From positions 1-40,921 of the IMG/VR virus record IMGVR_UViG_3300033553_000829: a DNA stretch of 40,921 nucleotides; one strand, written 5' to 3'. This document shows positions 1,055-40,921 of the stretch, piece by piece (positions within the stretch are counted from its first letter, which is position 1; every line of letters starts with the position of its first letter). This stretch comes from a virus. The notes under the pieces were generated by a model. That model ran no database searches, was not told the origin of the DNA, and saw only the letters and a list, made by a program, of their open reading frames with translations. A program made the translations under genes and the position numbers.

Positions 1055-1131
<77 letters not shown>

Positions 1132-1163
1132 ACATTATCCCCTAAAATAGCCACTTTCAAGCC

Positions 1164-2381
1164 TTATCCAATCTTTTTAAAATCTGTCACATTTGTCACT
1201 GTGTCCATTTTGTGTCCACGCTGTGTCCGCTCGGATTGTGACCCAACCTCAAACTCATCAAGAAAGCTTGCTCTCTTGATCTCTTTCTCATAAATATACT
1301 TCGCATAAAATTTGAGTGTGATGCTTGGGTTGCTATGCCCCATCACTTTTGACACCCAAATAATGTCCTCTCCTCGGCTGATCATCATCGTAGCGAATGT
1401 GTGCCGCGTCTGATACTGATCTCTCGCCTCCATCTGTAACCGTTTAATAAGTGGGTTCCAGTATGTCTTTTGGACAGAGCTGGCATGCCTAAACGATTCC
1501 CCATGGGTATTGACAAATATCGCGCCACCCTTGAGCCCAGTTGTTTTGAACTGTTCCATCAGTGCTTTGGAGACTAGCGGCAACATATCAATCGTTCGGA
1601 TCGAACTCTCGGTTTTAGGATCAGAGGTGATCCCATTGCGTACCGATCTCTCGATTCGGATCTTATTACTGACAAAGTTGATATCTTCCCATCGTAGTGC
1701 CATCATCTCTCCGGTACGCATACCGCTGAAAAATGAGAGCGTTAAAAAGTTCCGATACCATCCTTCGGCATTTTCTAGGATGTATTTCACTTCATCTAGG
1801 GAAAATGGGTAGACCTCAGCGCTTTTTTGCTTGACCCCTTTCATCCCTTGAAAAGGACTCTTTGAAATCAGCCCATCAGCTGCCGCGTCGTTCATGATCC
1901 CTTGGAGTACCATACGGATGTTATGCACCCGCTTGGGGCTTACCCCGCTGTCTTTTAGTTTACCTTGCCACGATAGCAGATCAGTTTGTACAATCTTAGA
2001 TAGTGGAATCGTCCCAAAAAATGGTATAATTCTCTGCTTAAATATTCCAAGGTACTCTTTATGGGTATTCTCTCGTCGATCTGTTCTATGAGCTTCGAGA
2101 GATTTATAACCATACTCTTCGACCGTTATCTCTCCGTCGTTTTTCTCAACTTCGATCTTGTCATTTCCTAATATTCGATCCAGCTCTTTTTGCCAGTTCT
2201 TCTCGACGTATTTCAAATTAGCTGGCGTTGCAGGTCGTCCGGTACTCTTTCGATGCCGGACACCATCGACTCTTACATCGAGGTATACCATCCCGCCGCG
2301 TTCTTTACAGTTTTTATAATTGCTCATATCGTCTCCAATACTTGCAGTGCTTTGTGGGCGACGAATTGTACCCAATAGCAT
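1164..2381 (-). CDS. int: tyrosine-recombinase phage integrase
   Basis: Site-specific recombinase that would insert and excise the prophage at tRNA-fMet. Seen: an N-terminal arm-binding region, a SAM-like core-binding domain (about 80-180) and a catalytic domain with Arg222 (SGMRTGE), Lys256 (DPKTESS), Arg326 in YQTRHTFA, His349 (MGHS) and nucleophile Tyr359 (LKFYAKY). The first His of the usual HxxR box is Tyr here (YQTR), a variant I believe is common in this group. The ATG at 2381 follows AGGAGGG. A second start (MSNYKN, near 2327) after GGAG would give the more typical N-terminus, so the true start is uncertain by 18 residues. Its 3' end faces the tRNA. Confidence 0.95.
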   Translation of the reverse strand: MLLGTIRRPQSTASIGDDMSNYKNCKERGGMVYLDVRVDGVRHRKSTGRPATPANLKYVEKNWQKELDRILGNDKIEVEKNDGEITVEEYGYKSLEAHRTDRRENTHKEYLGIFKQRIIPFFGTIPLSKIVQTDLLSWQGKLKDSGVSPKRVHNIRMVLQGIMNDAAADGLISKSPFQGMKGVKQKSAEVYPFSLDEVKYILENAEGWYRNFLTLSFFSGMRTGEMMALRWEDINFVSNKIRIERSVRNGITSDPKTESSIRTIDMLPLVSKALMEQFKTTGLKGGAIFVNTHGESFRHASSVQKTYWNPLIKRLQMEARDQYQTRHTFATMMISRGEDIIWVSKVMGHSNPSITLKFYAKYIYEKEIKRASFLDEFEVGSQSERTQRGHKMDTVTNVTDFKKIG

Positions 2382-11805: not shown

Positions 11806-12632
11806 AAAAACAACCCATAAACGCAGCCCTCTTAGCCTCTATAGCAGCAGGCGCAGCACTAAAAACCCAAGACGTTTCACACAGCGCACAAGCACCCTCA
11901 GAGATCTCCTGCGCCCTCATCGATCCCAACCCATACCAACCTCGCCTCGACTACGATCCGGCAGAGGTGCGTGCTCTATCAGACTCTATCGAAGAGTATG
12001 GATTGCTCCAGTCCATCGTCGTACGTCGTGACGGTGATCGTTATACCCTCGTCGCAGGACATACCCGCCTCGAAGCGTTTAAACTCTTAGGACGCACCAC
12101 GATCCCTGCTAACACTATCGACGTATCCGATATCGAAATGGCATCCTTGGCACTGATCGAGAACGTGCAGCGCTCCGATCTTCACCCGCTGGAGATTCAG
12201 ATCGCAATATCCCGTGAACCGTTCACATCGATGAAAGACGAAGATATCGCGCAGATCCTCGGATATTCCAATGTCACCAAGGTACGAAACATCCGATCCA
12301 TCAGCCGACTCTCCGAAGAAGTACGTGAGCACATGACCGCTAACCGACCGAAGATCGGAGTGGATCTCCTCGTCGAAATCCAAAAGTTTGATACATCGGA
12401 TCAGTTCCACTATTATGAGCTAATTATATGCGGGCAAGCTACCCGTCAAGAACTTCGCAACTGGCTATCATTAAAAGAGCTAAAAAAGCGGCAAGAAACC
12501 CGAAAACCGCATTTTCCCTTAACGCGAGTCGGCTCAGTCTATAAAATAGATTCGACTGTCATTTCTAATAAAGACATCAAGGCTTTTGAGAATGATCTGC
12601 ATACTATTATAAAAAAATACAGAAAAGGATAA
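11802..12632 (+). CDS. parB: ParB-family partition protein
   Basis: A 276-residue protein that would bind centromere-like parS sites and work with ParA. Seen: the N-terminal ParB/Srx domain with NPYQPRLDYD, LSDSIEEYGLLQSIVVRR, LVAGHTRLEAFKLLG (the CTP-binding box) and LIENVQRSDLHPLE. A central HTH follows (DEDIAQILGYSNVTKVRNIR SISRL). The ATG overlaps the upstream stop as ATGA. No parS-like site was recognised nearby. Partition genes in an integrated prophage suggest that the element can also be kept as a plasmid, or recently derives from one that was. Confidence 0.9.
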   Translation: MKKQPINAALLASIAAGAALKTQDVSHSAQAPSEISCALIDPNPYQPRLDYDPAEVRALSDSIEEYGLLQSIVVRRDGDRYTLVAGHTRLEAFKLLGRTTIPANTIDVSDIEMASLALIENVQRSDLHPLEIQIAISREPFTSMKDEDIAQILGYSNVTKVRNIRSISRLSEEVREHMTANRPKIGVDLLVEIQKFDTSDQFHYYELIICGQATRQELRNWLSLKELKKRQETRKPHFPLTRVGSVYKIDSTVISNKDIKAFENDLHTIIKKYRKG

Positions 12633-13018: not shown

Positions 13019-14766
13019 GCCTGTGCCGCGTTCTTCATCGATTTGGACTCCAGCTCTTTGATTTTCGATTGCATCTGTTGGAGGGTTAGCATCATCTGCT
13101 GTTGCTGCATCTGTGCGGCACTGTCATCTTTTGGCGCTTTTTGCATCTCTTCGATGATCTTGCGGATCTTATCAGCTCCAGCTGCTTCCACATCCGTCAG
13201 TAGCTCAGGCATATACGCCAGCCCGATTTGCCCCGTAGGATCAAACTCTTTCATCATCTTCATCAGCTCGACCCCTTGGGTATAACGCTCACCCGTAGCA
13301 CCGCGTGTTTGATTCACCATACTCATCGTGATGTCATAGCGACCGATATTGATGAGATTACGACGCACTGGAGCACCGGAGACTCGTTTCACGGCACCGT
13401 ACTGATCACGCTCGATCTCATTGATTGTGACGACGCGATCCACCCCACTAGGCTCTACGATACGGACAATCTGCTCCGCGCTAAAATACTGCTGCACAAA
13501 CTCACTGGCCAGTGTATAAAAATCGAGATCCTGCTTCATCGAGGTTTGTAAAAACCGCTGTAACCCTACCATCCCTACGTTCTGTCTTTGCTCGATAGCA
13601 TACCCGCTCATACGGTTCACTGCTGCACCAAGTATCTCATCATTTAACCCGATGATCTGCTCCGCTTGTTTACGCGCATCGACGATCAGCTGCATGAGAT
13701 GATTGATCTCCGCACTGTGCTTGATCTCTTTGATACGACCCTCTGATATTGCCCCATCCGCGAGCATCACTACCGCGTCGTCTTTGCTGTACTCATCGGC
13801 GAACAGATCACCATCATCGACCGCACTTGCTTCATAGAGAAGCTTCACTGATCCCAGCATATTCGCGATACGCAAATGCATAAAATTGATACGATCCTGT
13901 ATCGGTTTGATATTGCGGAAAATCCCGTAAAACTCTCCGGTACTGTGCATGTGATAGAGACGACGAATGGCAAAGGGGAATCTATCAAATTTGTATGGGG
14001 TATCCCCATGCTTTAGAATCGTCGTATTGCTCCACACATACCAACGAATAGTGGATTTTCCATCTACATACTCACGGCACCATGTGACCGTTACGAGGAT
14101 TCGGTCACGGTTTATATCCTGCCCGTTTGCCATATTGCGATATTGATCGATGCTAAAATCGCCCGTATAGTTTTGATTATTGATGAGTGTATCTACCGCT
14201 GCTTTATCGAAATGCAGATACAGATAATCACGATCCAGCCATCGTGCACGGTGAAAATACCGAGCATCACTGTAGTCAGGGGATTTATAGTACGGATCGA
14301 TAAAGGCCTCATCAAACGGTACATGATACCCACGGATCTCTTTCTCATGCTCTCCGAGAATATCCGCCTCCGGGAGGATATGCACTGAGGCTTCCATGAC
14401 TGATAACCCTGCGATGAGGAGATCTTCATCGCATCGCTCTTTATGGGCGTAGTAATCGGTACTGTCAGGGATAGAGAGTAGCACATCCGTGAGCAAAAGC
14501 GCAGCGGCGATATCAGAGCGTTGTCGCCCTTTGGCTTTTAGCTCCTGCTTCATCGACATTTTATAGCCGAGGATCTTATTGCCTATTTTTTGGTAAATGT
14601 TCTCCCATGTGATCGGCTGGCCACGGGATTGTAATACTGCCATAGTACCGGCATCGAGTTGTTCCCCATCAAAATAGCGCCGTTGCAGTTGCGCTTCCTC
14701 GCGTGACTTCTTGCTCAGATCATAGCTCTCTTTGAGCATCCCGCGCAGTTGTGTGATTGTTTTCAT
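12955..14766 (-). CDS. portal protein (P22-like)
   Basis: A 603-residue portal protein, forming the dodecameric ring through which DNA enters and leaves the capsid. It has the typical order of P22-type portals: helical start, WENIYQKIGNKILGYK, FDEAFIDPYYKSPDYSDARYF, RFPFAIRRLYHMHSTGEFYG, then IKPIQDRINFMHLRIANMLG and LNDEILGAAVNRMSGYAIEQ RQ. A Gln/Met-rich coiled C-terminus follows (about 530-603). The ATG follows AAAGG and overlaps the stop of the giant gene upstream. It is the last gene of the leftward late operon. Confidence 0.85.
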   Translation of the reverse strand: MKTITQLRGMLKESYDLSKKSREEAQLQRRYFDGEQLDAGTMAVLQSRGQPITWENIYQKIGNKILGYKMSMKQELKAKGRQRSDIAAALLLTDVLLSIPDSTDYYAHKERCDEDLLIAGLSVMEASVHILPEADILGEHEKEIRGYHVPFDEAFIDPYYKSPDYSDARYFHRARWLDRDYLYLHFDKAAVDTLINNQNYTGDFSIDQYRNMANGQDINRDRILVTVTWCREYVDGKSTIRWYVWSNTTILKHGDTPYKFDRFPFAIRRLYHMHSTGEFYGIFRNIKPIQDRINFMHLRIANMLGSVKLLYEASAVDDGDLFADEYSKDDAVVMLADGAISEGRIKEIKHSAEINHLMQLIVDARKQAEQIIGLNDEILGAAVNRMSGYAIEQRQNVGMVGLQRFLQTSMKQDLDFYTLASEFVQQYFSAEQIVRIVEPSGVDRVVTINEIERDQYGAVKRVSGAPVRRNLINIGRYDITMSMVNQTRGATGERYTQGVELMKMMKEFDPTGQIGLAYMPELLTDVEAAGADKIRKIIEEMQKAPKDDSAAQMQQQQMMLTLQQMQSKIKELESKSMKNAAQAQKYISESSVSVGDTGGEMGS

Positions 14767-17700
14767 TAGAATACCTTTTCTAATTTATTCATAGCTCGAT
14801 CCACTTTTTTGCTCCACTTTTCATCTCGTTTCTCTGATTTAATCTTATCTTTTCTCATCCGGTCTCGTTGATTGGATACGTCATACGTTTGCAGATTGAC
14901 AAAAAACGATGCTGCTTCCTGAGTAGGGGTGCGAGGCTCAAATACCCGATCAGTTCTACGTGTCTCTTTATCGAGTAGCTTACTCTCCGCTAGGTTGTAC
15001 GCTTTGTCGAGTACGTCAGGGCTAGGGAGAACATTTTGCACAGCATTTTTGACTTGATGGTAGGTTCCCTCTGTACCATCTTTCATGGTAATCGGTTTGC
15101 GAAAGTAGAAGTTATAGTTGGTAGCCGCTCCCAGTATCGTTTGCGGGATTCCGCTTGTGAGCGGTTCGAGAAACGTATTTTCAGGTTGTGCCAGCTGGAT
15201 ATGCGGAACCATAGAGCTCACCCGCAACCCAGTCACCTTATCCCCATCACGAGCTATCGCTACACGCTGAGCATCGAACCCTTTGGGCATAGTCTCATCA
15301 TCATAGGGATCAACCCCAAAGAGCCGATCCAGTCCATACCATCCTGCGGCTATAGCAGCTACACGAGTTGGGTGAGTGCGCAGCTGTTTAATCAGGATCG
15401 GAGTCGAGTAATACGTCCATGACATAAACGGAACCAGTCCGCTATCGCGCAGAGTCAGCGCGAGCTTGGACATCGGTTTTGAGTAGTCCGGGACGATGGT
15501 GTCATTGACATGCTTCATCGCTTCGTCGACATCCATCACGCTCTTAGAGCCATCCGCCCATACTCCATCATTCATTAGCTGTTTGATAGCGGAGAAACGC
15601 ATCACATCATCTTCGCCCTGGTATAGAGCTTTCATCGACTCAGAGACTTTATGAGAGAGCGATCCGGCTTTCGTATCGATGGATGGCGACATGTAGCTTC
15701 TGAGCATCTCATTGAGCTGTGAACGGCCAAACATCTTTTTCTCATCGAGAGACTTCCATAGACTCACATCGCTATTAGCTTCGAGTCGTGAGAGTTCAGC
15801 CGCTTCATCACCGCCCAAGCCACTAACACTCTTAGCTGATAGCTCTTTCCATCTCCCATAACGTCGTGCTGCGATAGTTCCGTCCGTAGCATATTTGATC
15901 GTCTTAAACGGATTAAGCCCCCCCGCTGCTTGCAAGAATACGTTTGATCCAATATTATTGACGTGTGCGGTCGGGTTGTAGATCGTATGGCTCATCTTCA
16001 CCGCTGAGACATAATCATTCCACAGCCGTTTAACATTTCCTTCTTCACCCATCGCATCATTGCTCACACGCTTCAAATCCCCCGCGATAGAGTGATTTAC
16101 CCATTTACCGTTTAGCGCACCGTATCGGCTTCCGCTGAGCTTCTCATAGCCCAACTGTTTCATCACCGCATCGCTGTACTGCCCTTGCTCCATGAGATAT
16201 TTAGCCGGCACGCCTTTAAGCATCTTCCCAAACTCGATCATCTGAGCCAACCGCCCAACCGTCTCAGGGAGACTGTACGCCGCGTTGCGGATCTCTCCCA
16301 TCTCTTTACGCTCTTGAGGTGTCCAGTCACGGCGAAGCTTATACCCACTGTCCGTATCTTTGAGTACCTCTATTTTCCCCTCAGAGACTTTCCCGATCTC
16401 ACCGTTTTTAAGTAACTCTTGATACTCATCCTCGGTAGCATTCCACGTTTTACCGCGCATGTGGATCTTCTCTACGCTAAACTCACCCTTACCGCTCGCC
16501 CAGTCACTCGCCTGTTTGATCTTCGAGGCGTATTTACGGTGGAGATATTGACCTTTCCACTCCTCATACGCCTCTTTAGTGAGAAAGCCCTCATCCACCA
16601 TCTCCTGACCCATACCATCGATTTTAGTGATAAACGTATCCGCAGCACGTTTTAACTCAGGAGTGAGAGCAACTGTTTTATCGCCGCTCATATAGACATA
16701 CATCGCCTCGCATGCTTCACTGGAGAGTTCTGAGAGTTGCAGATGCAGCCGTGCGGCGTTCTCCATCCCCGCATTGGCAGAGCGCAGAGCACCCTCACGG
16801 AGTTTCATATAATCTTCGAGCTTATAAATCTTATGCCCGATCACATAATCGACGAGATCGCTCTTGCTGATCTTTTCCGCTATCTTAGTGATACCGTTCG
16901 CCGTTACCTTATCGACACTCTTGATAGCGACCCTAACCATCCCTTGGATCGTCGCATCGCTCAGATGCTCAGCTTTCCCTGCGAGCTTCGATACCGCACC
17001 GCGCACGCTCTTAGACATCAGCGTACTCACTCCTGCGATACCTGCCAGTGCCATGATCGGATCAAACGTCACATTCCCGTTCTCATCCTCACCCACGCCT
17101 GCGAGCATCCCTCCCCCTTGGACATAGAGAGGCTGACCGTTTTTAGCGATCTCCTCTTTCATCTTCGCATTGACGGGGAAGCTATGGGCTTCGACACCGT
17201 TAGGGAGTGTTTTTTTCTCGACGGTTACGCCCCATTTTTTCGTGTACTTTTTCGCATAGTCTACGAGGATTTTGTCATAAAACCCTTTCATCCCATCCCC
17301 GCCGATATCGAGAGCTTCCCCCTTGATCTCATGGATACCGCTGTGGACTTCATTCTCCATCAGACGTTTAGCCGGTTCTTTCCCGATCAGCGCTTCGAGT
17401 TCACTCTCATCCGCGTTTTTGTACATCACCGATTTACCGTCTTTGTACCCCTCGATGACATGATAATTTTTGTTATAGACGAGACGATCTACACTGTGAC
17501 TCATCGCGTATCGATTCGCCTGAGTAGCACCATCCACCCACGCGACACGATCATATCCCTTAGTCACCGCTTCATCGATGATCTGACGCATACCGAACTC
17601 ATGCCATGTTTTTGACATAGGGGCTTGAGGGACTGCACTAATTGATTGACGTTCAGCATTTATTTTATTGACTAATTCTTCCCCCGCTCCTATTGATTTA

Positions 17701-20700
17701 AGCTCCTTAGCTCTTAACTTCTCTGCTTCGGTAAGCTCTCCACTCCATGACTTTGCATTTAACTCTTGTAGCTCAAGTGCATCTTTTGATAAAGGTTTTG
17801 GTTGTGACTTATATCCCTTCTTCCGCCCATCTTGATGCCAGTCGCTTTGGATCTCTTCAATGAGGAGCGTTTTATCCCCATCGATAATAGTGTCTTGTTT
17901 ACGGGTATGGAGGAGGACGTTTGGCTCACCCCAGTGCGAGGATCGATATAGTGCTTTATCAGAAGATACTAGCATTGTATCCAGTGCAGATTCATTGATT
18001 AAATCTTCTTTCGTTGCAAAACCTTTATGATATACCCACCCCTCTTCACCTTTAGTATCCCATAAATTCCAACTACCATCATCCATCTGCTTAGGTGAAA
18101 GTCCGCGTTTCCACTCAACATCTGCTTCACCTTTGAGTGTTGTCAACTCTTCCCGATAATTTTCCCCACCATTAGTAGAATATCTTTTATATTTTGTATT
18201 TCCAACATCTGTTGGCATTGCTTCTAAATAAGTATTCTTGGCATCAACATCTAATGAATCCCAAACCTCTTTATCGATATCAAAATGTTTTCTTGCCTCT
18301 TCATAATCATTCGTTTTATCGATAGGATTACTTTTTAGTACCTTACTCTCCATCACCGGATTTCCAAACTCCCCCTCGATCTCCGCTTTTGTAATCGACG
18401 TTTTACCCTCTACCGCCTTGGCAATTCCGCTATGAAGAATCTCATCGTCTTTGACCCCGTTGTTTTTGAGGTACTTGATAAACGCTTCACTCTCCATCTT
18501 CGGAGGCATCTTCTCGATGGCTCTTTGTGCGGCAGAGTAAAATCCGCCGGCGGATTTTTGTTGAGTTTGCAATAGCTCATCAGCTTTAGAGTTCATCACT
18601 TTGGACGGTTTCACATCCCCGAATACTCTCCCGGCTGCCTCTTTATTCCCCATAATCGCACGCATAAAATCGATATGATCGTCGTTTAGTTTAAATGTAC
18701 TCTCACGAGTAGCGACCACTCTCCACAAATCAACGAGCCAGTTTTTAAACTTCTCAAAAGCCCCAACCAGTTCATCCGTAGGAGCACTCCCATCGGATAG
18801 ATATTTCACAAACGCTTCGGCAAACGCTTCCTGTCGCGGTTTACCCTCAGCAAAGCTTGCGAATGCTTTATTATACGCCGCACGCTCAATCTCATCGAAC
18901 TGGGATTCGACGATGTGAGCATTCTCGTGGATCAGTGTAGAGAAATCAGCCGACTCGAAAAGACGGATCGTACTTTGCATCTCCCCTTTGGTATTAATAC
19001 CGATTGATACCATCCCCTTAATCAGCTTTTCGTCTTGGAAAAGTTCATCCACTTGACCATTAAGCATCTTCCCATTATGCCCGATGATCTCGATGTCGTC
19101 GTCGCTAAAAATGACATAGTTATGTTGAGTGTTGTCTGAGAGTTTCGTCGTCCATCCCTTCGCTTCTCTATCTGTGATATACGCTTTAGCTTGATTGATG
19201 TCGTGCCACTGAGTCTTTGCATATGGTTCACCATCCGAGGTTAAGAGTTCGACCTTATAGCGTTTTAGATTACGGCTATTCCCATCCACATACTTGATCC
19301 CACGGATACCGTTTTGATGGAGAAAATCTGATGCCGCTTTATCTGATCCTAATTTATCAGTGAGCCCATAATACAAACTCTCCCCATCCCAATCTTGGAG
19401 TTTTACGTTGAGAACACGTTTTTCAGCGATGGCCTTATTCCAGTCAGAAGTATCTAATTTGCCAGCTTTATCGAGCTGATTAAGCTCTTCTTTAAGTTCG
19501 TTGTATCGGATAAAATCAGCTTCGTTGTAGAGTCCCGCTTTTATAAGAGCTTCTTTAATGTCATTGCTTTGTTCTAAGAGTGGCTTATCCCATACTAACA
19601 TTTCAGTATCTTCGGGCTTCAGGTCGACCTTGTAGAGATTGCCTCTATGTATCTCTACTTTTCCACCACCCTCATTGATATGATCGAGTAGTGCTTGACG
19701 TTCAGGGGTCATATTTATTTTATCAATACTGTCTTTTCCTAGCATGCGCAAAAAAAACCGTTCTTGTTCTGTTTTTGGGATGTATTTTTTCCCGTTGATA
19801 TAGAAATCGCTTTCGGGGCTCAGCTTATTGCGATACCAATCTGCCACCTCTTTATCCCCGGCAAAATACAACCCATGCCCATACGCCTGAGCACCTTCGC
19901 CCGTTCCGATCTTTGCCGTAGTGAACTTGTCAACATTATGAGGTGCACCATGATATGCCGCCTGAAACAACCCATCCGCCTCTTCGATATCCGCTTTAAA
20001 CTGAGGATAATCAGAATGACGCATATCTTCGAGATCGTACCCCGTAGATTTCAGCCACTCATCGGTACTCACCCCTTTGGCTTTGGCGATCTCGTCGATC
20101 ACTTTCATATTTGCTTCGGCCATACCCTCACCGAACACCTCGGCCGCTTTTGCTATCTGAACATCGCGCAACGGTGTAGGATCGATTTTGGCATAGAGCG
20201 GGTCACTGTCGAGACGTTCGAGATCCGCTCTGAGCTTCGCCTCGATCTCAGGGGTGATCTTCCCTTTTTCGATCCGTACCACATCCCCTTTTGTGAGAGA
20301 GAAATCATAGTCATAGTTTTGCACGTCGCTCTCAGGGATCACGCTCGTCTCATATCCTCCGCCGTTGTTTTCATGTAACACGGTACGATCTGACTCTCGG
20401 ATAGCCTTGTACTCCGCACTCTTTGCAGAGACATTGCGACGCATCTGTAGGAGTTCGTCATAACGGGGGTGAGCTTGGAGCTCTTCGATGATAGGTTTAG
20501 GGGCGAGTTGCGCTTCGAGTTCTGCCTTGCGGGCTTTCCCCTCTGCGAGAGCTTTTTCGACTCTCTGTGCCTGTTGCTCTTGCGCTTTAGCTTTTGGATC
20601 TTCGGCTATCTCGACGACATTGGTGTCGCCGACATCAGGTTTGGTTGCGACATCGATGTCGTTAGCAGGAGTAGAATCCGCCGGCGGATTACTCTCTACT

Positions 20701-21668
20701 TTCGGCGCACCGTTCTCATCCGCAATCGCTTTGGCTATTGTTTCATCACGCTTAACATTCTTAGGGGTTTCTACTCCCATTGTTGCACTGGAACTTTTGA
20801 TGATATCATCAGCCGCATCGAAAATCTGTTGTTGCCCAGTCGTGAGTGCGCGCATCTCCGCTTTGTATCCTGCAACTCCTCCGACAATGAGCCCAGCCCC
20901 CATCTGTAATCCTGCGGCAAGAGTAGGGTTCTCTTTCTTCCACTTCTTATCCATCGCGGCATCAGTGCCTTCCATTGCTGCAACTGCACCGACCTGACCG
21001 GCAGCATCACCTACAGCGAACGCTCCCCCGGAGATGTTAGCTTTTGCCCCATGCTTAACCATCTCTTTATTCTTAAGTACCTTTCCTGCCACCATTTCAG
21101 CAGCACCCTTTATGCCATGGACAGCTCCACCGCCTATGAATGCAACATCAAGCGTAGTATCTTCCAGCGGTGCATCGCCAAGCAGCTGATTGAGTTTATT
21201 GTCAGTATCCTCTTTTTTATTTTGATCTTCCTCTAGTGCCACTTTCACTTTCGCCGGATCATTGGTGAGCAATCGAGTATCAATCTTTTTAGCCTCCATG
21301 AGATTATCCCATGGGGTGGTTCCTTTTGGTGTTGGCTCTTCGGGTTTGGGTTGTATGGTGGGTTTTGGTTGTGTCTTTTTTGCGGGGATAGGTTGACTAT
21401 TGTCATGCTTTCCGATGATATTTCCAATCGGATCTTTGGCAAACTCATCAACCGCATCCACAACTCGGCTGATCACCCCTTTTGGTGCAGGAGTAGGTAA
21501 AACTTCTTTGAGAAAATTATGATAAACAGTATTTCGCTGATCTTGATCGAGTAATTTGTAGGTATCCGCAGTAGCGAGAGTCTCTTTAAAATGCTCCCTT
21601 GCTACCTTGGTTTGTGCAGTAGGATCAAGCCCTAAAAAAGCATCGCTGCCAAACAACCCTTTGTCCAT
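14766..21668 (-). CDS. giant polyvalent protein (ART and zincin domains)
   Basis: About 2300 residues, the largest gene here. Recognisable parts: Pro/Lys-rich linker near 100-130; Gly/Ala-rich, possibly membrane-active stretches near 180-290; an ADP-ribosyltransferase-like domain from about 575 (AYHGAPHNVDKFTTAKIGTG, AYGHGLYFAGD); a zincin motif HENAH near 917; a long central region; and a C-terminal helical domain of the LPD38 type (about 1800-2200). Such polyvalent proteins are thought to be ejected with phage DNA to modify the host. Two copies of palindrome A lie in frame (NPPAD near 330, KSAGGF near 1041). The start is ATG at 21668 (or 21671) behind GGAG; a conserved late-promoter motif lies 42 bases upstream. 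Confidence 0.75.
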   Translation of the reverse strand: MDKGLFGSDAFLGLDPTAQTKVAREHFKETLATADTYKLLDQDQRNTVYHNFLKEVLPTPAPKGVISRVVDAVDEFAKDPIGNIIGKHDNSQPIPAKKTQPKPTIQPKPEEPTPKGTTPWDNLMEAKKIDTRLLTNDPAKVKVALEEDQNKKEDTDNKLNQLLGDAPLEDTTLDVAFIGGGAVHGIKGAAEMVAGKVLKNKEMVKHGAKANISGGAFAVGDAAGQVGAVAAMEGTDAAMDKKWKKENPTLAAGLQMGAGLIVGGVAGYKAEMRALTTGQQQIFDAADDIIKSSSATMGVETPKNVKRDETIAKAIADENGAPKVESNPPADSTPANDIDVATKPDVGDTNVVEIAEDPKAKAQEQQAQRVEKALAEGKARKAELEAQLAPKPIIEELQAHPRYDELLQMRRNVSAKSAEYKAIRESDRTVLHENNGGGYETSVIPESDVQNYDYDFSLTKGDVVRIEKGKITPEIEAKLRADLERLDSDPLYAKIDPTPLRDVQIAKAAEVFGEGMAEANMKVIDEIAKAKGVSTDEWLKSTGYDLEDMRHSDYPQFKADIEEADGLFQAAYHGAPHNVDKFTTAKIGTGEGAQAYGHGLYFAGDKEVADWYRNKLSPESDFYINGKKYIPKTEQERFFLRMLGKDSIDKINMTPERQALLDHINEGGGKVEIHRGNLYKVDLKPEDTEMLVWDKPLLEQSNDIKEALIKAGLYNEADFIRYNELKEELNQLDKAGKLDTSDWNKAIAEKRVLNVKLQDWDGESLYYGLTDKLGSDKAASDFLHQNGIRGIKYVDGNSRNLKRYKVELLTSDGEPYAKTQWHDINQAKAYITDREAKGWTTKLSDNTQHNYVIFSDDDIEIIGHNGKMLNGQVDELFQDEKLIKGMVSIGINTKGEMQSTIRLFESADFSTLIHENAHIVESQFDEIERAAYNKAFASFAEGKPRQEAFAEAFVKYLSDGSAPTDELVGAFEKFKNWLVDLWRVVATRESTFKLNDDHIDFMRAIMGNKEAAGRVFGDVKPSKVMNSKADELLQTQQKSAGGFYSAAQRAIEKMPPKMESEAFIKYLKNNGVKDDEILHSGIAKAVEGKTSITKAEIEGEFGNPVMESKVLKSNPIDKTNDYEEARKHFDIDKEVWDSLDVDAKNTYLEAMPTDVGNTKYKRYSTNGGENYREELTTLKGEADVEWKRGLSPKQMDDGSWNLWDTKGEEGWVYHKGFATKEDLINESALDTMLVSSDKALYRSSHWGEPNVLLHTRKQDTIIDGDKTLLIEEIQSDWHQDGRKKGYKSQPKPLSKDALELQELNAKSWSGELTEAEKLRAKELKSIGAGEELVNKINAERQSISAVPQAPMSKTWHEFGMRQIIDEAVTKGYDRVAWVDGATQANRYAMSHSVDRLVYNKNYHVIEGYKDGKSVMYKNADESELEALIGKEPAKRLMENEVHSGIHEIKGEALDIGGDGMKGFYDKILVDYAKKYTKKWGVTVEKKTLPNGVEAHSFPVNAKMKEEIAKNGQPLYVQGGGMLAGVGEDENGNVTFDPIMALAGIAGVSTLMSKSVRGAVSKLAGKAEHLSDATIQGMVRVAIKSVDKVTANGITKIAEKISKSDLVDYVIGHKIYKLEDYMKLREGALRSANAGMENAARLHLQLSELSSEACEAMYVYMSGDKTVALTPELKRAADTFITKIDGMGQEMVDEGFLTKEAYEEWKGQYLHRKYASKIKQASDWASGKGEFSVEKIHMRGKTWNATEDEYQELLKNGEIGKVSEGKIEVLKDTDSGYKLRRDWTPQERKEMGEIRNAAYSLPETVGRLAQMIEFGKMLKGVPAKYLMEQGQYSDAVMKQLGYEKLSGSRYGALNGKWVNHSIAGDLKRVSNDAMGEEGNVKRLWNDYVSAVKMSHTIYNPTAHVNNIGSNVFLQAAGGLNPFKTIKYATDGTIAARRYGRWKELSAKSVSGLGGDEAAELSRLEANSDVSLWKSLDEKKMFGRSQLNEMLRSYMSPSIDTKAGSLSHKVSESMKALYQGEDDVMRFSAIKQLMNDGVWADGSKSVMDVDEAMKHVNDTIVPDYSKPMSKLALTLRDSGLVPFMSWTYYSTPILIKQLRTHPTRVAAIAAGWYGLDRLFGVDPYDDETMPKGFDAQRVAIARDGDKVTGLRVSSMVPHIQLAQPENTFLEPLTSGIPQTILGAATNYNFYFRKPITMKDGTEGTYHQVKNAVQNVLPSPDVLDKAYNLAESKLLDKETRRTDRVFEPRTPTQEAASFFVNLQTYDVSNQRDRMRKDKIKSEKRDEKWSKKVDRAMNKLEKVF
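18541..18556. repeat. palindromic repeat A copy 4
   Basis: Perfect AATCCGCCGGCGGATT inside the giant gene, read there as KSAGGF. Confidence 0.85.
20675..20690. repeat. palindromic repeat A copy 5
   Basis: Perfect AATCCGCCGGCGGATT inside the giant gene, read there as NPPAD in a Pro/Ser-rich linker. Confidence 0.85.
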
Positions 21669-21710
21669 CATCAGCTCCAAATTTTTGCTTTGATGATAGG
21701 GTAAAATTAG

Positions 21711-24561: not shown

Positions 24562-24905
24562 CACATCCACTCCGCTTTAAATTTTAATACTGCTGCCTCT
24601 TTGAAAAAGCTGTTTTCACAATGGCGCTTATCCCAAAACAAGAAGTTAATAAACCGCATAAAATAGGTCGCATACTTATTCCCTTTGCGATGGAGATGAT
24701 ACGTCCAACTTGAAACCATCCAATCCTCTTGACTGTACAAGATAGATCCTCCAATTTGATCGAAACCGGATGCTATGATTTTGAAATACTCGACAACACT
24801 GTCTCTTCGTTGCCATATTTTGCGAACCACATTTAAAACGATCACCGGCAAAGTCACGATTGTAATGACGATGAGTGCTATGAGCATTAAGAAAAAGGAT
24901 CTCAT
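24561..24905 (-). CDS. membrane-anchored phage protein, unknown
   Basis: A 114-residue protein with a strongly hydrophobic N-terminus (about 2-26), then a soluble domain with IGGSILYSQEDWMVSSWTYH and a C-terminal FWDKRHCENSF. I recall related small proteins next to lysis genes in other phages, function unknown. It overlaps the upstream gene (4 bases) and the downstream start. Confidence 0.6.
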   Translation of the reverse strand: MRSFFLMLIALIVITIVTLPVIVLNVVRKIWQRRDSVVEYFKIIASGFDQIGGSILYSQEDWMVSSWTYHLHRKGNKYATYFMRFINFLFWDKRHCENSFFKEAAVLKFKAEWM

Positions 24906-25330
24906 GGCAACACCAATACTGGCAGCATTAAAATGAAATCTTCTACCGCAGGTAAAGGGATAGTTCCCGCTTGAACTTGTGCCAAAACCTCATACCCCTT
25001 GGCATTACACGCATCCATCCATGCGCCATACACCAATCCCTCAGCATGATAGGGAGAGTTTACCAACGCGGCACGTAGTGAGGCGGTATGGATCGTTGTG
25101 TATCCGCGCTCATTGGCTTTTTTGTTCATGTGATCTTCGAGCGCTTTTTCATACGTCGTTTTTGTCTCAGTGAATACCAATGCAGCATATGCCGTATCCA
25201 CAGCCGTAATCTCAACTGGCAACAGCGCACGCCATGCCCCTTTATCCATTACTACAAACTCAGTCGCATTAAACCCGACTTGTAGCCCCGTTACTTTTCC
25301 GATTGCAGTTTTACGCAGCGCATTGCTCAT
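24902..25330 (-). CDS. putative tail-fibre accessory protein
   Basis: A 142-residue protein. The C-terminal part (HMNKKANERGYTTIHTASLRA, HAEGLVYGAWMDACNAKGYE) has the pattern of a domain frequent in phage tail-fibre or assembly proteins (DUF4376-like). The identity is tentative. The ATG lies inside the end of the reverse transcriptase gene (20-base overlap) behind AAGGGG. Confidence 0.5.
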   Translation of the reverse strand: MSNALRKTAIGKVTGLQVGFNATEFVVMDKGAWRALLPVEITAVDTAYAALVFTETKTTYEKALEDHMNKKANERGYTTIHTASLRAALVNSPYHAEGLVYGAWMDACNAKGYEVLAQVQAGTIPLPAVEDFILMLPVLVLP

Positions 25331-26309
25331 ACATTCCCCTTATTGTTGATTTTAAATTATGGCTATCAGCCGTTTGAACGTGTCCGTGCCATGAGGCTAG
25401 GAACGCTCTTAGGTTTTCACTATCACCGTTTGCCACGTACCGCTTCACTTTTCGTTTGGCTCTAGTCACGCTGTCTTTTCGGATGAGCTTATAAGTAGGA
25501 GCTATTCGGTATCCCAAGAAATTCACTTGCTTATGCACCGATGAGATCATCCAGTGGCTAAATTTGAGGTTCATGTGCGTACGGGCAAACGCTTCGAGAT
25601 AGTCGCGCAGCTCTTTGAGATGTTCTTTGTCATGACTGAGAATCACCGTATCATCCATGTATCTAAAATAGTGCTTTTTTCCCAGCTCTTCTTTGACATG
25701 ACGGTCAAAGATATGTCCGTATAAATTGGCGCATAACTGTGAGAGTAGATTACCGATAGGGATACCGACACCATTACGATCACCGAACTGCTCCAGCAAT
25801 GAGATCACTTTCTTATCGCTGATCTTGCGCTCGATCTCTGTGAACAAAACGCCTCTATCAATGCTCACATAATATTTGGAGAAGTCCATCTTTAGAAAAA
25901 ACACTTCTCCCTCTGACTCCATCTGTCGCATCGTCGATTGTACGGCTCTTACTCCTGCATGAGTACCTTTGTTCTTTCTGCAAGCATACGTGCATGAATA
26001 AAAGACGTTATCGAAGATAGGCTCGATGATGTTGTTGATAGCGTGTTGCACGATACGATCACCAAACGGCAGCGCATTGATAATCCGTTTCTTTGGTTCA
26101 TAGACTTCAAACTGACTGTATGCTCCATGATGGTAGCTTCCATCGATGAGAGCGGTTTGGATACGATAGAGATTTGCTTCGAGATCTTCTTGAAACTTCA
26201 AGTGTCCCTCGGTATATCGATTCCCCCCTCGGCTCGCCTTTCGGTATGCGCTTCTCAGGTTCTCGATATCGTGAATCAAATCGTAAAGATGTTTATGTTT
26301 AGCACCCAT
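25311..26309 (-). CDS. DGR reverse transcriptase
   Basis: A 332-residue reverse transcriptase of a diversity-generating retroelement. Motifs: FLKMDFSKYYVSID (first catalytic Asp142), GIPIGNLLSQLCANLY (182-197, the I-x-G-x-x-x-S-Q form typical of DGR enzymes) and FRYMDDTVIL (catalytic Asp219/Asp220). No maturase or endonuclease domain, as usual for DGRs. With Avd it would copy the TR RNA with errors at adenines and transfer the copy to the VR of the tail-fibre gene. The start MGAKHKHLYDLIH is at 26309; its ribosome binding site is weak. Confidence 0.95.
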   Translation of the reverse strand: MGAKHKHLYDLIHDIENLRSAYRKASRGGNRYTEGHLKFQEDLEANLYRIQTALIDGSYHHGAYSQFEVYEPKKRIINALPFGDRIVQHAINNIIEPIFDNVFYSCTYACRKNKGTHAGVRAVQSTMRQMESEGEVFFLKMDFSKYYVSIDRGVLFTEIERKISDKKVISLLEQFGDRNGVGIPIGNLLSQLCANLYGHIFDRHVKEELGKKHYFRYMDDTVILSHDKEHLKELRDYLEAFARTHMNLKFSHWMISSVHKQVNFLGYRIAPTYKLIRKDSVTRAKRKVKRYVANGDSENLRAFLASWHGHVQTADSHNLKSTIRGMYEQCAA

Positions 26310-26462
26310 GATGAGCCGCCATGTCGTCTTGATATTTCGTTTTCACTACTCCACCTTTTACGAACCTCGTAATGTATTCGCTTACGCAGGAAAAATGAGC
26401 TAACCACTGCGAGAGTGATCGCACCGAGTATCCCGTGAGATAGTCGAGTGCATTGTGTATGC

Positions 26463-26571
26463 GGTTACAGGCGTAGCGACAACCATTATTCCAATTCGTA
26501 TTCCACACGTAATTATTCCAATTAGACGCGCGCGAGCCGGACTCCACGGTGTTGTCACGATTGCCGCCAAA
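26463..26571 (-). repeat. DGR template repeat (TR)
   Basis: 109 bases that align without gaps to the VR at 26980-27088 (offset 517). On the minus strand it is rich in AAT/AAC codon-like triplets (SNWNNYVWNTNWNN if translated). At all 12 A-type differences TR has A and VR has T, G or C; the single other difference is G to T. It lies between avd and the reverse transcriptase gene. The open frame across it is probably not translated. Confidence 0.93.
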
Positions 26572-26600
26572 GATAGCCGTATGTCTCATTTTCCCCTGAA

Positions 26601-26936
26601 TCATCTCTTGATCCAAGTACCGAGTATTTTTCCCACTTCGTCAATCTTGATCGATGCGACTTGGTGTTGATGCTGTGAGATAAAGCGACGTTTATCGTTC
26701 GCCATAAATCGCAACCAATACCGTATCGTTGCGAGATTTGCATCTGCTTCGTGCAGTTTGGATTTCTGATCTGATTTAAGAGCTTTATAAAAAAGCTCTG
26801 TTTGGATAAAGATAGATTGGATAATCATCGCTTTTACAGTACCGTGCTTGCGCTCCATGTTCTGCACGACAGGGTAGATGTAGTTGATAAACCCGTCGTA
26901 TTTTTCGATGATGACCAGCAAACTATCGCGTCCCAT
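26601..26936 (-). CDS. avd: accessory variability determinant Avd
   Basis: A 111-residue, basic, all-helical protein (HEADANLATIRYWLRFMAND KRRF and others) with the size and pattern of Avd four-helix-bundle proteins. In known DGRs Avd forms a pentamer that binds the reverse transcriptase and the TR RNA and is needed for mutagenic cDNA synthesis. Its position between target gene and TR is the expected one. The ATG follows GGAGG. Confidence 0.85.
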   Translation of the reverse strand: MGRDSLLVIIEKYDGFINYIYPVVQNMERKHGTVKAMIIQSIFIQTELFYKALKSDQKSKLHEADANLATIRYWLRFMANDKRRFISQHQHQVASIKIDEVGKILGTWIKR

Positions 26937-26951
26937 TTAGAGCCTCCATTC

Positions 26952-26972
26952 GCTTTCGCTCATTACGCAAGC
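26952..26972 (-). other. hairpin just downstream of VR
   Basis: GCTTTCG and CGCAAGC pair with one mismatch (6 of 7 pairs) around the loop CTCATTA, 7 bases past the VR end. DGR target genes often need a DNA hairpin/cruciform at this place. The 7-base loop differs from the 4-base loops known elsewhere, so the role is inferred. Confidence 0.5.
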
Positions 26973-29299
26973 TCCAAGTGGTTACAGGCGTAGCGACAAC
27001 AATAATTCCAACCCGTATCCCACACGTAAGTAGCCCAAAAAGACGCGCGCGAGCCGGACTCCACGGTGTAGTCACGAAAGCCGCCAAAGCGAGCCCCTAC
27101 TGGGGAAGCGGCATTACCATAAATAGAACCCCTTCCCTCAGTATTGGCAGCCCATGCAGAAGCTACGCCATTATTCCCTATATCTTTACCCCAAATCCAT
27201 TGACAGCCCGTAGCCATACACATACCGAACTTAGAGGTAAAGTTAGCGAGATGCTGAGTGACACCTGTATCCGCTGCGCCCGCTGATGTTGCTTCGAGAA
27301 CCCCATAAGCGATGGCACAAAACTCTTCATACGAGATCATGTCTTTGCCGTATGCTTTACCAATCTCCGCCGCTTCAAACCATGTGAGTGTTCCGTAGGT
27401 AGTCGTACCGTTTCCACCGTAGAAAGTAGGAATTTTAGGGAAGTTACGCCCATTGAGTACCGTACCCCCTGCGATGGTTTTTCCTGCTGCCGATGTACCA
27501 AAAGTATGATGATCCACATTGAGTAAATAGAGGTCATACCATTTACCCGTATTGGCTTTGAACATACCACGGTTATCACCATTGGAAGCTCTAAACTTCA
27601 AATCCCAAAAAGAGTACGCATTGATACCAGCGATCTTCGTAGCATCTGCCGCAACGATGTTGTTGATAGCCGTAAACGCTTCAGGAACAACACCATAATG
27701 AAACCCACCGATTTGGCGAGAGTTCGCAGTCGTGTATCCCGTCGGATTCGTAGCATTGGCAGAGAGAATAAACCCACCCGCTTCGAGCGCATAGACATAG
27801 TAATCTGTCCCTGCGGCTTTCACACCTGTATCGAGTGCGCCTACTCCTACGCTGTTAAGTGAGAGGGTGTAGGCGGTTCCCGATACGGTGATAATATTTA
27901 CTCCGGCTTTTACTGATGTGCCGATGGGGATGGTGATTGTGGAGACTGAGGCTTTGGTGAATAATGGGGCGCCTTGGAAGGGTTTGGTGAAGTTTACGAC
28001 ACTGATGCCATTGATCGTAGGCGTTCCAGTTAGGTCAGGGGAAAGAAATAGTGATAATTTAAAATCACCAATTCCTATCTTTTTTAGAAGTCCTGATACA
28101 CTGTCCCAAAACCCAAGTTCGTCTATACTTGCTGGTGTTGTTTTTACAGGAGCTGCATGGATTTGAGCGGCGATATCTGATGAAGATATCCATGCTACTC
28201 CATTCCATGTTTCCCCTATGCCAATCTCAGTATTAAACCCTGTCGCTCTATCACTAGCTCCAAGCACAGGGCGTGTAGCCGTCGTCCACTGTGGTAACCC
28301 GATAGATCCGGTAAATACTGGATTTGCAGTTGGGGCTTTCGTTCCAATCAGCGTTGTCATTGTTGTCGCAAAAGCAGGATCATCACCCAGTGCTGCTGCC
28401 AACTCATTGAGGGTATCCAGTGTTGCAGGAGCAGTATCGGTAAGTGCCGCGATAGCAATAGAGATATTAGCATCCGTTTGAGTTTTGGTGTAGACATCGG
28501 TAATACCATACCCAGCAGCATTGGTAGGGGTATTTTGGATATGACTAAAATCTACACTTACATCATCGGCACTAATTGTCAGCGTATTGGTCACATCATC
28601 ATAAACTATGGATATATTAGTGCCTTGTTGGATTAATGCCGCAACGCGATCATCAACCCGTTCATCGGTGTAGTATAAATTATTGAAGCCCTCGGAGATA
28701 TCATCACTCGATAGTACGACTGCCCCTATGTGCCCATTGACGCTAAACACGCCACCGCTATTAAGCATTTTCCAGTTTGCCAATGTAGACGCAGGAAGAG
28801 CCAAAAGCATATACTGCCGCTGATCATCAATACGAAATGCTAAATCTCCGGGCTTTGCAGCGGCAAGCGCCAACATAGATGCTTCATCTGAAGTAGGGAA
28901 AATATCAATAATATTAAGGCTTTCTAGAAAAGATGGGTCAATTTTTCCATTTACACCAAGCGGTGCATATCCATTAGGAACCCCTCTGTTCGTTGTAAAC
29001 TCGACATTATCCATATCCGCAGGCTTGCCTGTAATCTCGCTCCAGTTTACATATCCAAAACCAGTATTACCGTTTGCGTCCGTTTTCACAAACTGCATCG
29101 GATATACACGGCCATCTATGATAGCTACGGGGTGAAAATCAGGGTGAGTATAGTTATTGGCATTTTCTGCTATAGCTTCTAATTTTGATTTTTCAGCACT
29201 CAAAAACTCGGCTTCGCTTAACCCCTTACCTACTACTTTATCAACTTTATTATCCTGAGTAGCAATGATGCTTTTTATTAATTCTATAAAACTAGGCAC
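26963..29299 (-). CDS. DGR-diversified tail fibre / receptor-binding protein
   Basis: About 778 residues. The fibre-like body contains linker and repeat segments typical of tail fibres (ATLDTLNELAAALGDDPAFA, GTKAPTANPVFTGSI). The C-terminal 180 residues look like a C-type-lectin/formylglycine-enzyme-like fold (GRNFPKIPTFYGGNG, MISYEEFCAIAYG, CQWIWGKD). The VR encodes the last part (about 738-773), before HLELA-stop. Variable residues in VR versus TR are F, Y, F, A, T, D, G, Y and C. I prefer the GTG at 29299, which follows AAAGGGGATACT as in the capsid gene, over an upstream TTG at 29329. Confidence 0.92.
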   Translation of the reverse strand: MPSFIELIKSIIATQDNKVDKVVGKGLSEAEFLSAEKSKLEAIAENANNYTHPDFHPVAIIDGRVYPMQFVKTDANGNTGFGYVNWSEITGKPADMDNVEFTTNRGVPNGYAPLGVNGKIDPSFLESLNIIDIFPTSDEASMLALAAAKPGDLAFRIDDQRQYMLLALPASTLANWKMLNSGGVFSVNGHIGAVVLSSDDISEGFNNLYYTDERVDDRVAALIQQGTNISIVYDDVTNTLTISADDVSVDFSHIQNTPTNAAGYGITDVYTKTQTDANISIAIAALTDTAPATLDTLNELAAALGDDPAFATTMTTLIGTKAPTANPVFTGSIGLPQWTTATRPVLGASDRATGFNTEIGIGETWNGVAWISSSDIAAQIHAAPVKTTPASIDELGFWDSVSGLLKKIGIGDFKLSLFLSPDLTGTPTINGISVVNFTKPFQGAPLFTKASVSTITIPIGTSVKAGVNIITVSGTAYTLSLNSVGVGALDTGVKAAGTDYYVYALEAGGFILSANATNPTGYTTANSRQIGGFHYGVVPEAFTAINNIVAADATKIAGINAYSFWDLKFRASNGDNRGMFKANTGKWYDLYLLNVDHHTFGTSAAGKTIAGGTVLNGRNFPKIPTFYGGNGTTTYGTLTWFEAAEIGKAYGKDMISYEEFCAIAYGVLEATSAGAADTGVTQHLANFTSKFGMCMATGCQWIWGKDIGNNGVASAWAANTEGRGSIYGNAASPVGARFGGFRDYTVESGSRASFWATYVWDTGWNYCCRYACNHLELA
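26980..27088 (-). repeat. DGR variable repeat (VR)
   Basis: 109-base copy of the TR inside the 3' end of the tail-fibre gene. 13 differences to TR: 12 where TR has A, one where TR has G (GGT to TGT). The final stretch TGTCGCTACGCCTGTAACC is identical in both and probably contains the initiation site for mutagenic homing. Confidence 0.93.
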
Positions 29300-29594
29300 A
29301 GTATCCCCTTTGTATTTCAGCACAGCCAAGTGTGCTGCTCACCATCGCAACCAACATATCATCCAATGCTTTTAGCTCTGGTCGTTCTACGATATCCCCA
29401 TCGCTGTATTTCACAAAATCATCAAATAGTTTTTTTTCTGTTTGAGTCATTGGGCTAGAACACCAACTCATCATGAAATGATCTATGACACCAATCGTAG
29501 AACAATGAATGACACAGACATCCCCATCCAATTTATGGAAAATAGTATAAGGATGAGCATTTGATCTACCAATACTTCCAGCGGATGAGAGCAT
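29292..29594 (-). CDS. small phage protein, unknown
   Basis: A 100-residue protein with several Cys and His (DGDVCVIHCSTIGVIDHFMM SWC). First gene of the second late unit: the conserved promoter motif lies 43 bases upstream and AAGGAA precedes the ATG. It ends 8 bases inside the start region of the tail-fibre gene, whose ribosome binding site it contains, so the two are probably translationally coupled. No family recognised. Confidence 0.6.
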   Translation of the reverse strand: MLSSAGSIGRSNAHPYTIFHKLDGDVCVIHCSTIGVIDHFMMSWCSSPMTQTEKKLFDDFVKYSDGDIVERPELKALDDMLVAMVSSTLGCAEIQRGYCA

Positions 29595-32203: not shown

Positions 32204-32800
32204 TTAGCACCTTTGATATGTAGATTTAGCAGTGCGGGAACTACGACGCTGCGAGGTTATTTTGGAGATATCCCCGCATCGTTCTCTATAGAGATTCAGG
32301 TAAAACCGACTTTGGGTTAAACTCTCTTCATTCGCTTGTTTTTGATGCGCGAGGGAAAGAGCATAATACAAAACCGTATCTTCCATTTCTGTACTGATAT
32401 GAAGCGCATCGTTTATATTTGTAACCAGTCGTTTTGCATGATAATTAAAAACAATTTGCTGCGCCTGTATCGGCATAGGGTAGATGATCAGTGAGTCCAT
32501 ATCGATAAAAGCTGCCGTATCGGGGCCCTCGTTGGACATCGACCATTCGATCCCTTTGATCTCTACTTTTTTACCGTTGATAAAAAGAGAGATAGGAGCC
32601 ATAAAATCTTCGGGAATACTGTATGTATCTACCCCGATAAGTGTCTCATTGACCCATCTCCCTTTCCATGGGAGCAGTTTACTGGCGACAGCGGTAAGAG
32701 CAAAGTTCACAGAGTCTAAAAGCTCTGCATCACTCCACCCCTCTTTTGCTTCATCACGCAAGCGTGAGCGCATTTTGCCGATCAGTTTACTGCAAAGCAT
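32204..32800 (-). CDS. head-tail adaptor (gateway) protein
   Basis: A 198-residue protein. The N-terminal helices (IGKMRSRLRDEAKEGWSDAE LLDSVNFALTAVA), followed by a beta-rich part with YSIPEDFMAPISLFINGKKV and the C-terminal helix (SRFYLNLYRERCG), are typical of phage adaptor proteins (P22 gp4/DUF6682 type) that bind below the portal. Stop and start overlap with the repeat protein gene upstream. Confidence 0.65.
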   Translation of the reverse strand: MLCSKLIGKMRSRLRDEAKEGWSDAELLDSVNFALTAVASKLLPWKGRWVNETLIGVDTYSIPEDFMAPISLFINGKKVEIKGIEWSMSNEGPDTAAFIDMDSLIIYPMPIQAQQIVFNYHAKRLVTNINDALHISTEMEDTVLYYALSLAHQKQANEESLTQSRFYLNLYRERCGDISKITSQRRSSRTAKSTYQRC

Positions 32801-33330
32801 TAGTTACCTTTCGGTTTTTTTGGAGCTTTAGTTTGTGCAACTTCTGCATCTGCTTGAGCTTGGGCTGCTTGTGCAGCTTCGGCATCTGCTTGAGCTTGGG
32901 CTGCTTGTGCAGCTTCGGCATCTGCTTGAGCTTGAGCTGCTTGTGCAGCTTCGGCATCTGCTTGAGCTTGAGCTGCTTGTGCAGCTTCGGCATCTGCTTG
33001 AGCTTGGGCTGCTTGTGCAGCTTCGGCATCTGCTTGAGCTTGGGCTGCTTGTGCAGCTTCGGCATCTGCTTGAGCTTGGGCTGCTTGTGCTTGGGTCAAT
33101 TCTTCAGCAGCAAGAAAAACATCGGCAGGGATGTAGCTCAAAAGCACATTTAGATCTATGGCTTTAAAATCTTTATTTTTACGCATCATATGCGCTGTCA
33201 GCTCAGGAACGATGACGATATCCCCATTTTCAAGAATAGGGAATACACGAACCGCAACCAGCTGTTTAAACCGCTGTGGTTCTTGACCCACGTATTTAAG
33301 TGCTTTTAGGTTCGGTGTGTGTATTTTCAT
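32800..33330 (-). CDS. virion protein with Ala/Gln tandem repeats
   Basis: A 176-residue protein. The first 75 residues are a small globular domain (LVAVRVFPILENGDIVIVPE). The rest is seven near-identical 12-residue repeats of the pattern AQAQADAEAAQA, predicted to form a long helix, and a basic tail (KAPKKPKGN). Probably a minor capsid or head-completion protein; identity unknown. The repeat tail may change length by recombination. Confidence 0.6.
   Translation of the reverse strand: MKIHTPNLKALKYVGQEPQRFKQLVAVRVFPILENGDIVIVPELTAHMMRKNKDFKAIDLNVLLSYIPADVFLAAEELTQAQAAQAQADAEAAQAAQAQADAEAAQAAQAQADAEAAQAAQAQADAEAAQAAQAQADAEAAQAAQAQADAEAAQAAQAQADAEVAQTKAPKKPKGN
32837..33088 (-). repeat. 36-bp tandem repeat, 7 units
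   Basis: Seven 36-base units encode 12 residues each. Units differ mainly by TTGGGCT versus TTGAGCT (two adjacent middle units); the outermost unit at 32837 has two more changes. The near identity points to recent expansion or gene conversion. Confidence 0.92.
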
Positions 33331-40516: not shown

Positions 40517-40921
40517 CTAATTATTGGGGTGATATTCCCCATGTCCGGTTGTGTTTCCTGCTGCATCTTGTTGCTCTACAGGTATCCCGCCATCCCCTTT
40601 GCTATCCAGCATCTGCATACTCTCAACGATCATGGAGTGCTTAGAGCGCTTTTGCCCACTTGTCTTATCAACCCATTGCTCAAAGTTCAATCGTCCCTCT
40701 ACGAGGATTTTAGAACCCTTGCGAAGGTATTGATTGGCAACCTCACCGCTACGCCCAAAAAAGGTGATATCAACAAAACATGTCTCTTCTTTTTTCTCAC
40801 CGTTTACCGTAAACTTACGGCTTATAGCAATCGCAGTGTTTGCAATCGCAGAACCATTTTGAGAATATCTAAGTTCAATATCGCGGGTTAGGTTCCCGAC
40901 TAAGATCACTTTATTGAACAT
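40517..40921 (-). CDS. ssb: single-stranded DNA-binding protein
   Basis: A 134-residue SSB with a complete OB fold: FNKVILVGNLTRDIELRYS, AIANTAIAIS, EETCFVDITFFGRSGEVANQ YLRKGSKILVEG. The C-terminus (TGHGEYHPNN) lacks the acidic DDDIPF-like tip that binds partner proteins in host SSBs, which suggests a phage-specific version. The start codon is the last triplet of the window, so the gene is complete but its promoter is not visible. Confidence 0.9.
   Translation of the reverse strand: MFNKVILVGNLTRDIELRYSQNGSAIANTAIAISRKFTVNGEKKEETCFVDITFFGRSGEVANQYLRKGSKILVEGRLNFEQWVDKTSGQKRSKHSMIVESMQMLDSKGDGGIPVEQQDAAGNTTGHGEYHPNN

Follow-up and report, generated by a model that had tools for sequence, protein, structure and literature searches.

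A BPP-1-type diversity-generating retroelement with a fibre-tip target and a second, distal target in a Campylobacterota prophage

We analysed a 40,921-nt stretch of viral DNA (IMG/VR record IMGVR_UViG_3300033553_000829, positions 1 to 40,921; hereafter the window), in which a first-pass annotation had described a complete diversity-generating retroelement (DGR) of a Campylobacterota prophage and had proposed that it switches receptor specificity. The complete BPP-1-type DGR in such a prophage held up on analysis. The receptor-switching account is incomplete and describes just one half of the element's work: beside the tail fibre, the DGR targets a second protein, which is no fibre. We consider it probable that this is a complete BPP-1-type DGR, carried by a P22-like prophage in a Sulfuricurvum-like host and serving two targets: the tip of a tail fibre (target 1) and a 333-aa Mtd-like protein without fibre parts (target 2), encoded beyond the window end in the same prophage, ~15 kb from the first variable repeat (VR1).

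The retroelement and its three repeats

All parts previously listed were found on the minus strand, in the order target, avd, template repeat (TR), reverse transcriptase (RT). Among the additions in the list below are the Phage_DGR RNA, the hairpin 3' of VR1 and, past the window end, target 2:

26963..29329, minus strand: target 1, a 788-aa tail-fibre protein with a TTG start (Pfam mtd_2nd, 3e-21)
26980..27095, minus strand: VR1, at the 3' end of target 1
26948..26963, minus strand: hairpin 3' of VR1, a target element on the side of the initiation of mutagenic homing (IMH) site; ATGAGC-GAAA-GCGAAT, stem with tandem G.A
26601..26936, minus strand: avd (Pfam bAvd, 4.3e-35; NCBIfam NF033474, the Avd equivalog, above cut-off; PHROG Avd)
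26463..26578, minus strand: TR, 116 nt
26323..26450, minus strand: Phage_DGR RNA, the structured RNA that separates TR from RT (Rfam RF03022; 83.4 bits against a gathering threshold of 50)
25311..26309, minus strand: DGR RT, 332 aa, with IGNLLSQ and YMDD (phrog_1423, 1.5e-109; 8ub7, 2.7e-94 over residues 1-326)
24902..25330, minus strand: 142-aa gene that shares 20 nt with the end of the RT gene and accompanies the cassette in close relatives
41542-42543 in window-equivalent coordinates (G000:C3:178697-179698; L028:3698-4699): target 2, with the second variable repeat (VR2) at its end

The RT carries YMDD and, as IGNLLSQ, the motif 4 pattern [IVL]GxxxSQ. Its closest solved relative is 8ub7, which we take to be the BPP-1 DGR RT (the entry itself is titled 'Reverse transcriptase'), and the runner-up is a group II intron RT at 1.6e-15. 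Judged by this best solved match, the enzyme is a DGR RT, as first proposed, with no sign of a place outside the DGR clade. The Avd-like protein was likewise borne out by profile search. In target 1, a C-terminal part of ~340 aa (residues 447-787) matches the BPP-1 Mtd structures 1yu0-1yu4 (E down to 1e-51) and comprises an Mtd-like beta-sandwich and a C-type lectin fold at VR1. The fibre gene is present as described, with one correction: 29299, given earlier as its start, is an in-frame GTG, and we take the open reading frame (ORF) from the TTG at 29329.

The pairing of a TR with a VR at the 3' end of the target gene was also confirmed. TR and VR1 differ at 15 of 116 nt, and 13 of these mismatches lie at TR adenines (13/27 adenines changed versus 2/89 other sites; Fisher test, 3e-8). 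Over 112 nt, VR2 differs from the TR at 11/27 adenines and at 0/85 other sites. TR, VR1 and VR2 are the only three copies of the repeat in the whole genome. When VR2 was compared with the TR in five phages, 48/124 adenines had changed versus 1/434 other sites (Fisher test, 4e-34), and VR1 of the same five gave 44/124 versus 3/438; a further phage, G495, had 7/24 adenines changed in VR2 versus 0/90 others, bringing the VR2 totals over six phages to 55/148 adenines versus 1/524 other sites. As read from these repeats, TR-derived sequence has overwritten both VRs in the window phage and five others, and recently: almost no other change is left.

A 17-nt hairpin string is shared by the two VRs, non-coding after VR1 and coding after VR2, and does not follow the TR. 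Across five phages, a stem-loop with GAAA or GGAA in its loop follows 10 of 10 VRs, while the TR flanks have no such hairpin. The ten stems span 6-10 positions; most have two G.A mismatches and are not GC-rich, and that of the G405 VR2 is bulged. In the commonest form, GTGAGC-GAAA-GCGAAC, the two G.A mismatches are kept and the outer stem letters covary; the G495 VR2 hairpin is similar, and there the inner pairs have also changed together. BPP-1 needs a paired hairpin 3' of its VR, with a GRNA loop and a GC-rich stem of 7-10 bp (PMC3240598), of which the hairpins described here would be a variant, most having a tandem G.A mismatch and a stem that is not GC-rich.

Homology predicts that an RT-Avd complex reverse-transcribes the TR transcript, which would be folded together with the Phage_DGR RNA, and makes errors at adenines. 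The repeats record, as past events, the replacement by mutated cDNA of both VR1 at the fibre tip and VR2 in the Mtd-like protein. VR1 diversity would then alter receptor recognition, and a change of tropism through VR1 can be soundly inferred from the Mtd homology of target 1.

Three further observations concern the cassette. A 105-aa ORF containing the TR (26299-26616) was considered as a gene and rejected: it is open in close relatives, but a stop follows soon after the TR in G350. The 142-aa gene gave no match in a family search. Within the fibre gene, window positions 28350-28455 have 76-82% DNA identity to tail-fibre genes of P1 and of Salmonella phages; the P1 counterpart lies near an inversion crossover site, and the segment is likely a shared recombination module.

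A family of second targets

Target 2 matches Mtd over the beta-sandwich and lectin domains and is 38% identical to the fibre tip. An IMG/VR scan with target 2 of the window phage alone returned no match. The family appeared there only when an alignment (A1) was the query. In all, searches placed it in six further phages or prophages, giving, with the window phage, six intact VRs and one remnant. The loci are in G350, G403 (L188), G404 (L197), G405 (L204) and G495, with the remnant in G455. Fibre, avd, TR, RT and target 2 occur on one genome in G403, which is judged complete because of its 127-bp terminal repeat.

The window edge already falls within the gene neighbourhood of target 2:

40517..40921, minus strand: SSB gene; upstream and outside the window follow an exonuclease gene, then target 2, a 58-aa ORF and DnaB

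These genes form a tight operon in the order DnaB helicase, 58-aa ORF, target 2, exonuclease, SSB. Elsewhere, DnaB lies directly upstream of target 2 in G405, an exonuclease gene lies downstream in G404 (where the target 2 gene adjoins the attachment site), SSB is two genes downstream in G403, and a primase gene is on the contig that carries target 2 in G350. In G495 a CII-like activator precedes target 2, an O-like replication initiator follows it and a DNA methyltransferase gene lies further on. The remnant, in a Sulfuricurvum-group genome, is damaged and at a contig edge (L286:1-237), and the exonuclease gene still comes after it. In none of the cases seen does target 2 lie among tail genes; it occupies a replication or early region instead. 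Its reading frame is intact wherever a contig end does not cut the gene, in phages of different hosts.

In a tree built with the VR removed, target 2 proteins formed one clade (100/100) separate from 41 tail tips, including fibres of the same phages; repeating the tree with six target 2 members gave the same single clade on a long separating branch. The alignment shows two loops lost in common by the target 2 relatives. Judged by these comparisons, target 2 is an old, conserved paralogue rather than a recently copied fibre tip. Charged residues make up 24-29% of target 2 proteins versus 11-24%, mostly 12-18%, of tail tips.

A fold model was made of the L188 target 2, a family member and not the window protein (pLDDT 79). 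Five Mtd structures align with it across ~257 residues, with Z scores of 28.6-28.7; the match begins at Mtd residue 52-58 and leaves out the first ~55 residues of Mtd, whose N-terminal domain serves assembly. The first 37 residues of the model form a separate beta-beta-alpha piece, with low confidence at 31-43; Foldseek with the whole model gave no separate match for this piece, which was not searched alone. Target 2 of G405 and G495 has no such N-terminal piece and starts directly at the beta-sandwich. A PADLOC search of one target 2 member and its neighbours assigned no defence family to that member.

Mtd-like genes of G348, G207, G506, G586, G414 and G261 were considered as further second targets and rejected, since they lie with tail genes or with the DGR cassette; their products are 15-21% charged where measured. 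G348 and G207 were examined for Avd, DGR RT and TR, and none was seen. Mtd-like tail-tip genes at L171:8559-9641 and L172:9464-10960 belong to prophages in which no Avd, DGR RT or TR could be detected, and are possibly left over from a lost DGR.

Possible roles of the second target

Our tentative reading is that target 2 may be an early intracellular, variable lectin-type binder. It would act early inside the cell, perhaps, and then most likely as a counter-defence or host-takeover factor that keeps up with variable host proteins. One retroelement may diversify two proteins that act on opposite sides of the host envelope, namely the tail tip on the outside and, within the cell, an early lectin-type binder that would be a rapidly re-aimable inhibitor of host defences.

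Several points weigh against the two-target explanation or its intracellular part. Early intracellular expression is deduced from gene position and composition only. Target 2 and the TR lie on separate contigs in two of six cases (G350 and G495), the window and G403 proteins are on long branches, several members are compositionally biased, and VR1 has its two non-adenine changes, near its ends. PHROG 11262 labels target 2 'tail protein', via Mtd homology.

A somewhat unlikely alternative is that the dormant prophage makes target 2 for lysogenic conversion or superinfection exclusion, the protein being diversified against varied incoming phages. Its place beside the attachment site in G404 is the usual one for cargo genes, and in the window prophage only DnaB and the 58-aa ORF separate it from the right attachment site, attR. 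Against this stand the tight packing of the window gene with helicase, exonuclease and SSB, which leaves little room for a promoter of its own, and the early-operon position in G495.

We regard it as unlikely that target 2 is instead a second receptor-binding protein of the virion, a free Mtd-like tip whose gene has been displaced to the early region. Such a protein would account for the Mtd homology across beta-sandwich and lectin domains and for the PHROG label, and BPP-1 Mtd is also a small separate protein, one whose gene adjoins other tail genes. The modelled member, however, appears to lack the N-terminal domain of Mtd, the G405 and G495 proteins begin directly at the beta-sandwich, and no target 2 has a fibre domain. 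Target 2 is, moreover, about twice as charged as tail tips, and its gene never adjoins tail genes in the cases seen, lying between CII and O in G495.

That the DGR is an ordinary single-target tropism element, with VR2 a passive by-product kept by chance as a stray homing site, is very unlikely: VR1, avd, TR and RT are by themselves enough for the BPP-1 mechanism and a single target is found in the available sequence of most IMG/VR relatives, but a by-product would decay, whereas uncut target 2 frames are intact in phages of different hosts, form one clade on a long branch and retain VR and hairpin in each case.

Prophage setting, distribution and known systems

The virus is dormant in a sulfur-oxidising bacterium. 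It is inserted in tRNA-Met of a Sulfuricurvum-like host genome, a placement of the host made because the adjoining MutY gene is 80-84% identical to Sulfuricurvum genes. Paired 47-bp attachment repeats give a prophage length of ~43 kb, extending ~3.5 kb beyond the window:

1087..1133, plus strand: left attachment repeat (3' part of tRNA-Met), 47 bp
L028:6493-6539 (window-equivalent ~44337-44383): right copy, identical over 47 bp, ~3.5 kb past the window end
1164..2381, minus strand: tyrosine integrase (phrog_1, 1.5e-61; Pfam Phage_integrase)

Other prophage genes encode a P22-type portal, terminase, major head protein, endolysin and CI-type repressor. ParA-like and ParB-like genes (window 10341-12632) suggest that the prophage may also persist as a plasmid. 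A 2304-aa protein (window 14766-21680) has a weak match, below cut-off, to a polyvalent ADP-ribosyltransferase domain and is probably an injected virion protein, and a protein with a long AEAAQAAQAQAD repeat array is encoded between head genes (window 32800-33330).

Phages in IMG/VR whose structural genes are quite different share this cassette (fibre tip, avd, TR, RT), at 78-91% RT identity; one of these phages has a 1369-aa siphovirus-type tail-tip protein. No second target was seen in the available sequence of most of these relatives. The TRs differ among phages, yet each VR matches the TR of its own phage at nearly all non-adenine sites, a mark of repeated homing. In one close relative (L002:3748-3870) the TR has lost, between two AATTGGAATAAT copies, 27 nt that its VR still has; a VR rewritten from this TR would become shorter. 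Another DGR-like RT/Avd pair, distinct from the first, lies on a separate contig of G350 (G350:C109:4833-6513).

The suggestion that DGRs are little described in this host lineage agrees with our survey: they look uncommon, with Avd above cut-off in 8/397 genomes of the phylum and Phage_DGR RNA in 3/397, and the literature collection searched has no paper linking DGRs with Sulfuricurvum. An above-cut-off Avd is accompanied by an RT with the DGR motif in six genomes of the phylum; in 15/23 genomes the Avd match was weak, staying below cut-off, and was not taken as a sign of a DGR. An RT scan of genome contigs found no relative. A paper that names of the phylum brought up assigns its DGRs to Gammaproteobacteria.

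Phage DGRs have so far been seen almost entirely as devices for switching receptors. A conserved target 2 in a replication operon, written from the same template, would mean that certain phages also depend on rapid, directed diversity within the cell, and target 2 offers a defined protein family for asking what such diversity binds. Pipelines restricted to the RT neighbourhood miss targets of this kind; one survey states that it would miss distal targets (PMC8144416).

The BPP-1 DGR (mtd-avd-TR-brt) resembles the present element in gene order, RT, Avd, Mtd-type target fold, RNA element and, here in what would be a variant form, a hairpin 3' of the VR; in both, the RT gene and the one after it even overlap by 20 nt (brt/bbp4 in BPP-1). 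The present element differs in the fusion of target 1 to a long fibre, in its distal second target and in the tandem G.A of most hairpin stems; unlike BPP-1 Mtd, target 2 is not encoded among tail genes in the cases seen. In tentaclin phages nd4 and nd12, one TR likewise serves two lectin-type targets per phage, but both targets are described as lying within the DGR cassette and tentaclins have an N-terminal lectin followed by Ig domains (PMC10743442). Tentaclins were proposed as receptor or adhesin proteins, and the role of mutating two genes was called unclear (PMC10743442). Bacterial DGRs that diversify putative antigen sensors are alike in that the diversified proteins are proposed for conflict systems; those DGRs are cellular, in multicellular bacteria and on the defence side, whereas the present one is phage-encoded (PMC10907252).

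A likeness in setting is to four gut prophage species described in PMC12629997, temperate like ours, whose second VR is remote from the RT cassette and near counter-defence genes. That neighbourhood fits the intracellular counter-defence reading of target 2, and the G495 operon with its methyltransferase resembles these prophages as there described. They are gut phages, not of Campylobacterota, and the passages considered present no conserved family, phylogeny or replication-operon position. A BPP-1-type DGR is itself already known, and distal second VRs in prophages are on record; the conserved early-operon target 2 family appears new.

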